From Beijerinckiaceae bacterium (GTDB taxonomy: Bacteria > Pseudomonadota > Alphaproteobacteria > Rhizobiales > Beijerinckiaceae), in the NCBI GenBank assembly GCA_004564215.1, contig CP024846.1:1054001-1118000 (forward strand): a stretch of 64,000 nucleotides of DNA, read 5' to 3'. Every line of letters begins with the position of its first letter. Positions within the stretch are counted from its first letter, which is position 1. The translations under genes and the position numbers were made by a program. Below, piece by piece: positions 11,880 to 49,204 of this stretch. Below the pieces are notes generated by a model. It was not told where the DNA came from, made no database searches, and was given only the letters and a program-made list of their open reading frames with translations.

Positions 11880-12214
11880 CGGCCAAGGATCTAACGCGCG
11901 AGAGGTAAAGGATAAAATTTCGTACCGACAACACTCCAGGATAGCGGAAATCACAGTCAAAGCAGATTTTGGGGTTCCTCCGCGCTCAATGTGGACGAAA
12001 TCCGCCCGGCCTCGCTCCCGGAAAATGCTCTCTATCTATTTGTTTTGAAAAACTTTTGCAGAACCCACGCCATCACCCTGAGGAAGCCCGAAGGGCTGTC
12101 TCGAAGGGCGCGAGGGCGCATCCTTCGAGACGGGCGCTTCGCGCCCTCCTCAGGATGAGGCGCCCTTTTCCCTATCGACGGGCTTGTGCGCTACACATGC
12201 TCAAGAAACGCGTT
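11880..12214. other. Non-coding gap holding a palindromic repeat
   Basis: This 335-base stretch separates the orphan putative nuclease gene from the end of the small coiled-coil gene on the opposite strand. Apart from the palindromic repeat at 12073-12158 I see no convincing frame. The short open frames here are shadows of the upstream gene or of the repeat itself. Confidence 0.6.
12073..12158. repeat. CCTGAGGA-bounded palindromic repeat, intergenic copy
   Basis: The ends CCTGAGGA (12077-12084) and TCCTCAGG (12147-12154) are inverted copies. Inside, TCTCGAAGG (12099-12107) pairs with CCTTCGAGA (12122-12130), and small GC hairpins fill the arms. The same signature (CCTGAGGAG, TCTCGAAGG, CCTTCGAGACGG, CTCCTCA) forms the element inserted in ileS at 31706-31875, so at least two copies occur in this window. 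Confidence 0.75.
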
Positions 12215-25749: not shown

Positions 25750-25796
25750 AAGTTTCGGCGTAGGAAACTTTTCCAAAGTTTCCTACGCCGAAACTT
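25750..25796. repeat. Perfect 22-bp hairpin between the M16 gene and mutL
   Basis: Positions 25750-25771 and 25775-25796 are exact reverse complements (22 of 22) around the three-base centre TCC. The position, 3' of the M16 peptidase gene and 140 bases before mutL, suits a transcript end or mRNA-stabilising stem. There is no long T tract on the minus strand; the plus-strand side is followed by CTCTTTT. It does not match either of the other repeat types in this window. Confidence 0.75.
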
Positions 25797-29636: not shown

Positions 29637-30137
29637 TCATTGCGGGGCCGCCCCGCCGACCTCGCCGGATTTTCTTTGCGGAAAGAGCGAATCATAAATC
29701 AGCAGGACGACACCGGCGACAATCGCGACATCGGCGAGATTGAAGACGTACCAAGAAAAGGTACCGATATGAAAATGATAGAAATCGGCGACGAACCCGT
29801 AGGCCAGCCGGTCATAGGCATTGCCGAGCGCGCCACCAACGATGAAGCCAAGCCCCAAGGCCGTGGTCTTGGTTGCTGACCGCCAAAGCCAGAAACTGAG
29901 GAAGGCGGTGGCCGTCAGGGCAATCAAGAGCAGACCAAACCGCTCCATTGCGGTTTGGGCGCGCAACAGTGAATAGGAAATGCCGGGGTTTTTGGCATAA
30001 ATCACGTCAAAAAAAGACGTCAACCGGATAGGCTGGTGCGCCTCGATGCCAAATATAAAGATAAGCCAAAGCTTGTTGGCTTGATCAGCTGCAAGCGTGG
30101 CGCCCGCCGCTAAAAAGCCAAGGAGGCGAGCACTCAT
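29637..30137 (-). CDS. lspA: Lipoprotein signal peptidase (SPase II)
   Basis: LspA cleaves prolipoprotein signal peptides in the inner membrane. The 166-residue protein has four membrane segments and the two catalytic aspartates, D109 (GNAYDRL) and D136 (VFNLADVAI). Its ATG at 30137 overlaps the ileS stop as ATGA, so translation is coupled to ileS, a common arrangement. A GTG at 30143 is a possible alternative start. The usual AxxDQxxK near the N-terminus appears as AADQANKLW. Confidence 0.95.
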
Positions 30138-33100
30138 GGCCACCGTCCCAGCGCCTGTAGTTCCCGCAAGGCCTGCGCGTCGCGCGGCGTGACGCCGGGA
30201 AATTCAGGATCGGCTCCGACCAGCGGAGAAATTTTCCAGGACCTGGCGCATTTTCTTCCTTCGGCGCGCGCGCTTACGACCGCGACACCTTGGATGTCGT
30301 CCAGCCGGAAGGCGTCGGCCGGTCCCTCGCCGGCCTCGATGCCGATATTCGAGGTGATGCAGATTTCAGCGAAATCCACGGAGGCGAGAATGTCGCGCAG
30401 GCCGGCATCGACAATATACACGGTTGGCGCGGCTTCGAGCGAAGAACCGATCCGCTTCTGGGCCCGCTCGATCTCCAGGGCGCCGGTGACAACCGAGCGG
30501 ACACGGCGAATCCGCTCCCATTTTTCCGCAAGCGCATCGTCACGCCAGGAAGCCGGCACGTCCGGAAATCCTTCGAGATGCACCGAGACGGCTTCGGGGT
30601 AGCGAGATAACCAGGCTTCTTCCGAGGTGAAAACAAGAATAGGCGCGAGCCAACATGTGACGCAGCGAAAAATTTGCTCGATGGCGACGAGCGCGGCACG
30701 GCGCTTCTCGCTCGAGGGCGGATCGCAATACAGCGTGTCCTTGCGGATGTCGAAATAGAAGGCCGAAAGATCGCTGTTGAGGAAGGCCGAGAGTCGCGCG
30801 ACGACACGCTTATAGTCGAAGCGGAGGTAGGCATCTCGGATCTCGCCATCCAATTCGGCAAGACGATGCAGCATGAGTTTTTCGATCTCGCCCATCGCCT
30901 GCCAGCCTGTTGGATCGGCGGCATCGTAATGGGCAAGCGAGCCCAGCATCCAGCGGATCGTATTGCGGAGTTTCCGGTAGGTCTCGACGAATGTCTTCAG
31001 GATTTCCGGCCCGATGCGCATATCGTCGGAATAATCCGAGGCCGCCACCCAGAGGCGCAGAATATCGGCGCCGGCATCCTTGATCACGCTTTGCGGCGCA
31101 ACGACATTGCCAAGCGATTTCGACATTTTCTGGCCCTTCTCATCGAGAACGAAACCATGCGTCAGAACCGCGTCGTAAGGGGCGCGGCCACGCGTGCCGC
31201 AGGATTCCAGCAGCGAGGAATGGAACCAGCCGCGATGCTGGTCCGAGCCTTCGAGATACATGATTTCGTCCTGGCCGCCATCGCGTATGCGATCTATGCC
31301 GGCAAGGCCTGGGAAATGCTTCCGATCATCAAGGGTAAAGGCATGGGTCGAGCCCGAATCGAACCAGACATCGAGAACATCGTCGATTTTTTCGTATTTT
31401 TCCGGATCGTGTTCCGGCTCGAGAAAACGCGCGGCCGCGCCTTCCGCGAACCAAGCGTCGGCGCCCTCCTGTTCGAAAGCATCCGCGATGCGTCGATTAA
31501 CCTTGTCGTCGAGAAGGATTTTCTTCGTATCCTTGTTGACGAAGATCGCGATCGGCACGCCCCAGGCGCGCTGGCGTGAGACGACCCAATCCGGGCGATT
31601 GGCGATCATGCCGGTGATGCGGTTTTCGCCGGCGGCGGGATACCATTTCGTAATGGCGATCTCGCGCAGCGCGATCTCGCGCAAAGTGAGTGCATTTCGA
31701 AGTGCCCCCTCATCCTGAGGAGCGTGCGCAGCACGCGTCTCGAAGGATGAAGAACCGGCACTTGACCCCTCGCCCTTCGAGACGGCGCCAGCCAAGTCGG
31801 GCCTGCCCGACTTGGCCTCTGATGAACCAATGTCGGCTAAAGCCGACATTGGTTGCGCCTCCTCAAGATGAGGGGTCTCGATCACCTTATCGAGTGCAAT
31901 GAACCATTGCGGCGTGTTCCGAAAAATCAGCGGCTTCTTGGAGCGCCAGGAATGCGGATATTGATGTTTTAATTTTCCGCGCGCCACGAGATTGCCGGCC
32001 TCGATGAGGGCCTTAATGACCGCATCATTGGCGTCGCCTTTGTTGCCTTTATCGTCGATGACGCGGCGGCCGGTGAACCCCGGCGCTTCTTCGGTGAAGA
32101 AGCCGTCGGCATCGACGGTGTAGGGGATGCGCGTGTCGATGCCGCATTCAGCAAGAACGCGGCCATTCGCCATCCAGATGTCGAAGTCGTCGCGACCATG
32201 GCCCGGCGCGGTATGGACAAAGCCCGTCCCGGTCTCGTCGGTGACATGGTCGCCGTCAAGAAGGGGAACCTTGAAGTCGTAGCCGGCGAATTCTATCCCA
32301 AGCTTATCGTTGGCTAACGGGTGCGCGCATTCGCCAGCGGACAATATCGTCGGATCGATGGTGCCAAGCTGCTCGTATCCCTCAACGCGAGCGGCCTTGA
32401 ATACCTCGGGCGCTAGCTTCGCAGCGAGGATATAAGTCGCGCCAACTTTCGCCCAGTTGTCCGCAGATGCCTGCGTTACGCGATAGAGTCCGTACACGAT
32501 TTTCGATGAAAAACAGATTGCACGATTGGCAGGGATCGTCCACGGGGTAGTAGTCCAAATGACTACCGAAGTTGGAACTAACTGATCACCAACTGGAGAG
32601 AGCTTACCAAAATTGTTCCACTCGACTTTGTGCCAATCAACGGTACGACCTCTCCCTACCATTCGGCATGGAAAGGCGACCCATACCGCATCGCTGACAT
32701 GATCCTCATATTCGACCTCGGCTTCCGCCAGCGCCGTCTTCTCGACCACGCTCCACATCACCGGTTTCGAGCCGCGATATAGGGTGCCGTTCGCCGCAAA
32801 TTTCATGATCTCGCGGGCGATCTGAGCTTCGGCGGGATAGGTCATCGTCAAATAGGGATGGTCCCAATCCCCGGTCACGCCGAGCCGCTTGAATTCCTCT
32901 TTTTGCACCTCGACCCAATGATCGGCGAACACCCGGCATTCGCGGCGGAACTCGTTGATCGGGACGGCGTCCTTATTGCGACCTTTCGCGCGATAATTCT
33001 CCTCGATCTTCCATTCGATCGGCAAGCCGTGGCAATCCCACCCCGGCACATAATTCGAATCCTTGCCGAGCATCTGCTGGGAACGGGTCACCAGATCCTT

Positions 33101-33376
33101 GAGGATCTTATTCAGCGCATGGCCGATATGGATATTGCCATTGGCATAGGGCGGCCCATCGTGGAGGACGAATTTCGGCCTGCCCCGCCCAGCCTCGCGC
33201 AGGCGTCCATAAAGATCGATCTCCCGCCAACGGGCGAGCAGCTCCGGCTCCCGCTTCGGCAAACCGGCGCGCATCGGGAAATCGGTTTGCGGAAGATAGA
33301 GGCTCTTTGAATAATCCGGCGCGTTCTCCGCGTTATTGACGGGAGTGTCCGTGGCCACCTTCGTCTGTTCGTTCAT
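30134..33376 (-). CDS. ileS: Isoleucine--tRNA ligase with an in-frame palindromic-element insertion
   Basis: IleRS is a class Ia synthetase with editing. HIGH lies at residues 83-86 (NIHIGHALN), the CP1 editing domain has [17 protein letters not shown], and KMSKS is at 750-754. The protein is 1080 residues long from ATG 33376. About 57 residues (~501-557, between FIALDKVIE and [11 protein letters not shown]) are encoded by a palindromic repeat (31706-31875) and are Ser/Ala/Gly-rich, with no family counterpart. Flanking sequence is normal and the frame is intact, so the enzyme is probably active with a surface loop. A stretch at 32461-32640 is only 48% GC (87 of 180). lspA overlaps the stop. 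Confidence 0.95.
31706..31875. repeat. Palindromic element inserted in ileS
   Basis: The element is bounded by 17-base inverted repeats (31706-31722 and 31859-31875, one mismatch). Inside are GCGTGC/GCACGC, TCTCGAAGG/CCTTCGAGA, an 11-bp hairpin (CCAAGTCGGGC arm, ~31792-31815) and a 12-bp hairpin (CCAATGTCGGCT arm, ~31827-31852). It shares its signature with the intergenic copy at 12073-12158. The frame of ileS runs through it without a stop. Confidence 0.8.
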
Positions 33377-33579
33377 TTCATTCAGGCCTACGCGAGCGCG
33401 GCGCGGCAAAGCCGCTGGTAAATGCAAAGCCGCATGGATGGATTCGACGTCCCCCCGGCCAAGCGCTCAAGCGCGGGCCGGGCCCATAATTCGCCGAAAA
33501 CGAGGGTCGGTCTGTGTGGCCATACATGCGTTCTAGCAACTGTCGCGCGCCGAATAAAGCCTTTCGAAATGGCTTGTTT

Positions 33580-49092: not shown

Positions 49093-49204
49093 GATCACGA
49101 TGATTTTGGATTGACTCAATCCAAAATCATCGTGATCGATTCCAAAAACTTTAGAGCGGGATGCGGGCGGAAAACCGGTTTCCACTTTTCCTTATCCCGC
49201 TCTA
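49093..49204. repeat. Composite palindromic repeat, TAGAGC family, copy 2
   Basis: The first part is a perfect 22-base inverted repeat (49093-49114 and 49116-49137, single-base centre). The second part is a TAGAGCGGGAT/ATCCCGCTCTA hairpin (49152-49162 and 49194-49204) enclosing GGAAAACCGGTTTCC. The stop codon of plsC (49204-49202, minus) lies inside the right arm. The design is the same as the repeat after recA at 1763-1875 and can serve as a transcript end for both convergent genes. Confidence 0.75.

Follow-up and report, generated by a model that had tools for sequence, protein, structure and literature searches.

An in-frame palindromic repeat in ileS of a Beijerinckiaceae bacterium lies in a loop of isoleucyl-tRNA synthetase that holds many different inserts in related genomes

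The DNA analysed here (the window, 64,000 nucleotides in all) covers positions 1054001-1118000 of a 3.33 Mb genome assembled as a single contig, with a G+C content of 58.8% (calculated over 1.264 Mb). It includes ileS, which encodes isoleucyl-tRNA synthetase (IleRS) on the minus strand (30134..33427) and whose closest named relatives are the ileS genes of Methylocapsa and other Beijerinckiaceae. The open reading frame (ORF) of 1097 amino acids scores 766 bits against TIGR00392 (cut-off 621) and also matches PF00133 and PF08264. Its first start codon is TTG, and the true start may be internal. Since all other matches to IleRS in this genome are weak (E 1e-14 or worse), it is very probable that the genome contains a single IleRS gene.

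Within ileS lies a palindromic element of 170 bp (31706..31875) that is read in frame on the minus strand as approximately residues 518-574. Its ends are inverted repeats of 17 nt (31706..31722 and 31859..31875) which are 94% complementary, in agreement with the one mismatch reported when this DNA was first inspected from its letters alone (the sequence-only reading). The internal hairpins described at that stage are also present, but there are four inner stems and not three. One half-unit contains an inner stem at 31717..31741 (arms 31717-31727 and 31731-31741, 82% complementary), and a stem formed by CGTCTCGAAGG and CCTTCGAGACG joins the two half-units (31736..31784; arms 31736-31746 and 31774-31784, 11 nt, 100% complementary). 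The other half-unit contains two perfect hairpins, one of 12 bp (31791..31816; arms 31791-31802 and 31805-31816, 100%) and one of 14 bp (31825..31854; arms 31825-31838 and 31841-31854, 100%). The coding strand of the element folds with -122.7 kcal/mol (z -10.1; 0/200 shuffles equally stable) and the opposite strand is similarly structured (z -11.0; 0/200 shuffles equally stable). The frame stays open throughout, as had been claimed, and adds about 57 residues to IleRS in the form of a peptide that is presumably translated.

The element is one copy of a repeat. The window contains two exact matches to its core, CATCCTTCGAGAC (12119 and 31737), and the first of these positions falls within another copy of this type of repeat, located between genes (12073..12158; 88% over 42 nt), which bears out the signature that the sequence-only reading had seen in both places. 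If up to one mismatch is allowed, the core has 3 matches in the window versus 0.12 expected, and 16 in the whole genome (8 of them exact) versus 2 for a backward control; one exact match, at 122 kb, is an ordinary part of an 861-aa frame and not an element. The wider element maps to six genome loci, namely ileS, where it is in frame, and five (the copy at 12073-12158 among them) with no open frame longer than 169 aa over the core. An initial search pattern was uninformative (7 matches versus 8 for its backward control), and Rfam gave no match in the window at the gathering score. A genome search with one query found no second copy of the 31791-31816 hairpin, and for the 31825-31854 hairpin it returned just its own reverse complement.

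An AF2 model of the protein (mean pLDDT 82) resembles the bacterial IleRS structures 8c9e/8c9f and 1qu2. Residues 519-577 have pLDDT below 50 and are flanked by a strand (501-510) and a helix (582-592), such that the element corresponds to a predicted disordered loop bordered by the strand ending QWFIALDK and the helix starting TLREIAL. In the solved structure 8c9e, only two residues separate the aligned flanks of the site. To judge from the model, an insert at this loop need not disturb the IleRS core. A second stretch of the protein, residues 258-282 (~32580-32660), is also variable in length and has pLDDT below 50. In one other genome (G178, locus L195) the IleRS carries a palindromic insert elsewhere, near the position of residue 842 of the window IleRS (34 aa, z -8.6).

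The sequence-only reading held that the added residues have no counterpart in the family, and our main result is that this claim is overturned. In related genomes the corresponding stretch is bounded by QWF(I/V)A(L/M)D(K/R) and LR, and it holds many different inserts, mostly other palindromic repeats. The site is common to relatives and the sequences inserted there differ; an identical insert forming a conserved domain in orthologues, the outcome that the sequence-only reading had named as refuting it, was not seen. The differing sequences, together with the pLDDT below 50, rule out a conserved extra domain, and the presence of inserts at the same place in relatives rules out an insert unique to the window's genome. 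In the Methylocapsa clade, both halves of the element are present in two genomes (G172 and G202), M. aurea has the left half only, G198 has the right half only, and next to nothing of the element is found in M. acidiphila and M. palsarum; the reading frame is preserved with whole, half or absent elements alike. The window copy has two additional perfect hairpins in its left half which are absent from G172, and at that place G202 has other extra sequence. The half-elements in these relatives suggest that such inserts may decay in frame.

The distribution of inserts was assessed in a family sample that was not picked by insert (84 genomes, 43 genera), using a 99-aa probe from an insert-free genome. 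The probe matched 82 of the 84 genomes, and 78 were kept after exclusion of the two matchless genomes and of four with a divergent IleRS (G020, G043, G060 and G079). The latter match the probe at just 32-35% identity, which suggests a different kind of IleRS. The probe was split in 17/78 genomes, with one open frame for both halves in every case, and a large insert occupied this loop in 10/78. Linker length was measured from TPQWF to NRI in 76 of the 78, the remaining two being judged from the splitting of the probe. It was 32-40 residues in 51 genomes, 42-57 in 14 and 65-104 in 10, with one mis-picked; at the extraction step, L267 and L278 were missing from the 81 loci, and the cut for L268 fell at the wrong end. 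All 10 large inserts were more stable than all of their 100 shuffles (z -2.9 to -11.2), and flanking windows in the same genes gave z -1.7 to +2.2.

It is conceivable that these observations reflect some artefact (an assembly error, a pseudogene, or an insert that is removed at the RNA or protein level), the case being known from sequence alone. An assembly artefact, a caveat raised at the outset, is unlikely because the genome is a single contig and separately sequenced relatives carry related elements at the site. The lack of any second IleRS found in the genome, the intact frame in 17/17 split cases and the related inserts carried by public IleRS proteins (retrieved by element-only protein searches) also argue against artefacts of these kinds, which we regard as extremely improbable.

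The 10 large inserts fall into three DNA groups with zero cross matches between them (BLASTN, E <= 1e-3): L036/L038, L043/L063, and L041/L050/L052/L054/L057/L058, the members of the last being linked directly or via one another. On an IleRS tree calculated with the linker omitted (75 rows, after L268 and the three loci from other families, L281-L283, were dropped), at least nine changes are needed to account for the 10 large inserts. Because palindromic inserts from three or more DNA groups, unrelated to one another, occupy this loop in other genera, insertion or replacement took place several times. A single ancient insertion in the family ancestor, which later diverged or was replaced through gene conversion by repeats resident in the genome and which most lineages lost, is harder to reconcile with three groups that do not match one another and with large inserts that are scattered on the tree among near relatives with linkers of basal length. 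Such a history would suit the elements of the window's genome (G000), G172, G202 and G198, which look related by descent within the Methylocapsa clade, as well as the medium-length linkers in 14 of the 76 genomes, but we consider it very improbable.

We also assembled a larger set from several searches (147 loci that include the site; 119 are distinct and 102 have full length), which over-represents inserts because many loci were chosen by their score with an insert-bearing query. In this insert-enriched set, z was below -3 for 28/38 inserts at this loop, compared with 2/28 at the second variable site, which is usually not palindromic, and 1/76 random ileS windows. There are also insert-bearing linkers without significant structure (L056, z +1.1; L150, -0.9; L088, +0.4). 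Six medium linkers were scored, giving z -7.6 for L280, -2.3 for L269 and between -0.5 and +0.9 for L276, L272, L261 and L245; fold scoring of the medium and class-level linkers returned no value for 5 of 17 loci. The unstructured medium linkers suit a process of decay, without proving it. Among 14 inserts of one flagged DNA type, 13 are read in a frame giving PHPEE/SFET/APQDE (12 recognised by pattern and one, L053, by eye), the exception being L038, which is mixed. This bias fits a filter that may act at the protein level, yet descent makes the number of independent events far fewer. The GEG/SGERG repeat type is also multi-copy, being present in 8/13 genomes with up to 29 matches in one.

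Inserts at this loop also occur beyond the family. In an order-level sample of 101 genomes, of which three belong to the family, 98 were matched, and two besides the window's own (G204 and G232) had approximately 32-33 extra residues; their inserts are weakly structured (z -2.0 and -1.7, with 4/100 shuffles equally stable for each). Named inserts from outside the family were found in Devosia geojensis (z -2.9), Mesorhizobium sp. LHD-90 (z -5.9), M. ephedrae (z -4.4) and Rhizobiales bacterium 65-79, the last without significant structure (z -0.9). At the class level, 185 of 190 genomes gave a match, and seven were followed among the matches listed, chosen for weak or multiple matches. Four of these seven had 16-39 extra residues, a proportion that reflects this choice and is not a class frequency, and palindromic structure is seen in two of the four inserts (z -8.9 and -4.7) but not in the other two (z -1.5 and +0.9). 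Insert cases outside the order exist, but are rarer.

Based upon these observations, we think it probable that mobile palindromes have repeatedly entered a permissive loop of IleRS and then decayed in frame, an account in which transposition, translation and neutrality are presumed. In this model, a putatively mobile palindrome resembling REP or MITE sequences would have landed in frame in ileS, at a surface loop between the QWFIALDK strand and the TLREIAL helix that is likely to be permissive. Such repeats may move via transposition or copying, and an insert would be expected to survive if it has a length divisible by three and encodes a hydrophilic stretch free of stops. This peptide would be translated and hang out from the enzyme as a flexible loop. 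Deletions driven by the hairpins might later trim the insert, so that short scars remain and a further element can be accommodated.

Palindromes that lie in frame inside conserved genes are familiar from Rickettsia, where they are called Rickettsia palindromic elements (RPE). The window element is likewise an in-frame palindrome in a conserved gene, but it is found in the Beijerinckiaceae (as judged by its named relatives), and IleRS differs from the RPE case in that a single loop of the enzyme is used by several groups of unrelated repeats. The parallel with RPE that the sequence-only reading drew is apt as regards behaviour, the element being in frame in an essential synthetase, but in-frame palindromes outside Rickettsia had already been described (PMC3733652, 2013). 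According to the accessible part of that paper, in-frame REPs occur in many bacteria and their hosts include tRNA synthetases of X. oryzae, E. litoralis and S. alaskensis. REPs of the GTAG/CGTC type are there described as short and palindromic, mostly intergenic, sometimes intragenic and in frame, and arranged singly or as dimers, and recB of X. campestris and of X. oryzae are reported to hold REPs that differ from each other but lie at nearly the same position (PMC3733652). The same part of the text contains neither the term 'isoleucyl' nor a loop shared across genera, and the synthetases it covers may include IleRS. Our own literature search found no report of palindromic inserts in the IleRS loop.

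The window element resembles intragenic REPs in the wide sense, in that it is palindromic, multi-copy and mostly intergenic, and also occurs within a genuine gene whose reading frame it leaves intact. A CGTC REP, as defined in the accessible text, has a CGTC, TGTC or CCTC tag and a stem of 8-9 bp starting with A-T pairs around a loop of 4-5 nt, with other loop lengths in some families (PMC3733652). Compared by eye, the window unit may be read as starting with CCTC-AT, but what it encloses is far longer than 4-5 nt and is itself a hairpin. The element also shares with MITEs its short length, terminal inverted repeats and multiple copies. With the IleRS loop, in-frame palindromes would no longer be isolated instances but would form a natural experiment with replicates, one loop of an essential enzyme having been entered repeatedly by inserts of different repeat groups that apparently decay in frame. 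The loop might serve as a natural record of mobile DNA becoming protein sequence. Rates of gain, choice of frame, decay and effects on the enzyme become measurable at this loop. The old question of whether such inserts are harmless filler or provide material from which proteins are built can be put to the test here, in an enzyme that is well understood.

Several searches bear on which other genes host in-frame palindromes. An element of the ileS type lies in frame within CobN of two genomes, G161 (L290, assigned by Pfam) and G187 (L291, assigned by likeness), and a protein search with the CobN insert returned CobN in 3/3 cases (two from Methylosinus and one from Methylocapsa aurea); CobN may be a second recurrent insertion site. 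In 12 chosen genomes, a query derived from ileS gave 28 matches, and frames of at least 1000 aa were ileS in 8/8, a result that the query itself favours. The intergenic copy gave 34 matches in the same genomes, 8 of them in frames of at least 500 aa: four in ileS, two in CobN, one in a LigD-like gene near its C end and one in a frame without a Pfam family. Element-only protein searches returned IleRS in 6/6 and 3/3 matches, one match per search being the query's own record, and they cannot rank host genes because their range is limited to close relatives of the respective query. A fold scan covering 38% of the window's genome yielded 36 structured sites, 13 of which lie in predicted ORFs; read by eye, only those in ileS and in the gene for an ACR3 arsenite transporter look like internal inserts. 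The ACR3 gene contains two hairpins and is longer than its plasmid homologues by about 38 residues (estimated from match lengths). One of the two hairpins lies in frame within these extra residues (L360:2445-2570) and has an arm identical to the left arm of a perfect 22-nt repeat, GATCACGATGATTTTGGATTGA, at 49093-49137 of the window. In-frame palindromes are therefore not confined to ileS in this genome, and the inserts in cobN and ACR3 rule out ileS as the sole host gene. Among the cases met here none is repeated as often as the IleRS loop, which is not a genome-wide ranking of hosts, and tolerance alone fails to explain this loop over others, with 2 sites resembling internal inserts among the 13 structured ORF sites.

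A selected function of the inserts is possible. They might be kept because a hairpin in the middle of the mRNA acts in translational pausing between the enzyme halves, in mRNA processing or in attenuation, or because a flexible loop is useful, with different palindromes recruited to the same job. The reuse of one loop by unrelated repeat groups, the strong folding of the element on both strands and the position of the site after a core strand in mid-enzyme are what might be expected of such a role. Large inserts are however absent from all but 10 of the 78 family genomes, half-elements and linkers without significant structure persist, and cobN and ACR3 also host inserts, so we judge maintenance by selection unlikely. 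A bolder version, which strikes us as quite unlikely, would make the IleRS loop a class-wide landing site at which unrelated mobile palindromes are recruited and not simply tolerated. The resident one would supply a mid-gene hairpin in the mRNA, or a flexible spacer, by which the synthesis or the folding of IleRS is tuned, the function being conserved while the sequence is replaced. Repeated entry followed by in-frame decay is the reading that we prefer. Finally, two further structured ORF sites in the window's genome (G000:C1:937101 and 1121451) lie at ORF starts, which may be mis-set, and encode repeat-like peptides, and a third (G000:C1:193701) lies inside a predicted ORF. A further perfect inverted repeat, with 22-nt arms around a loop of 3 nt, is present at 25750-25796 of the window, in a position that is apparently intergenic.
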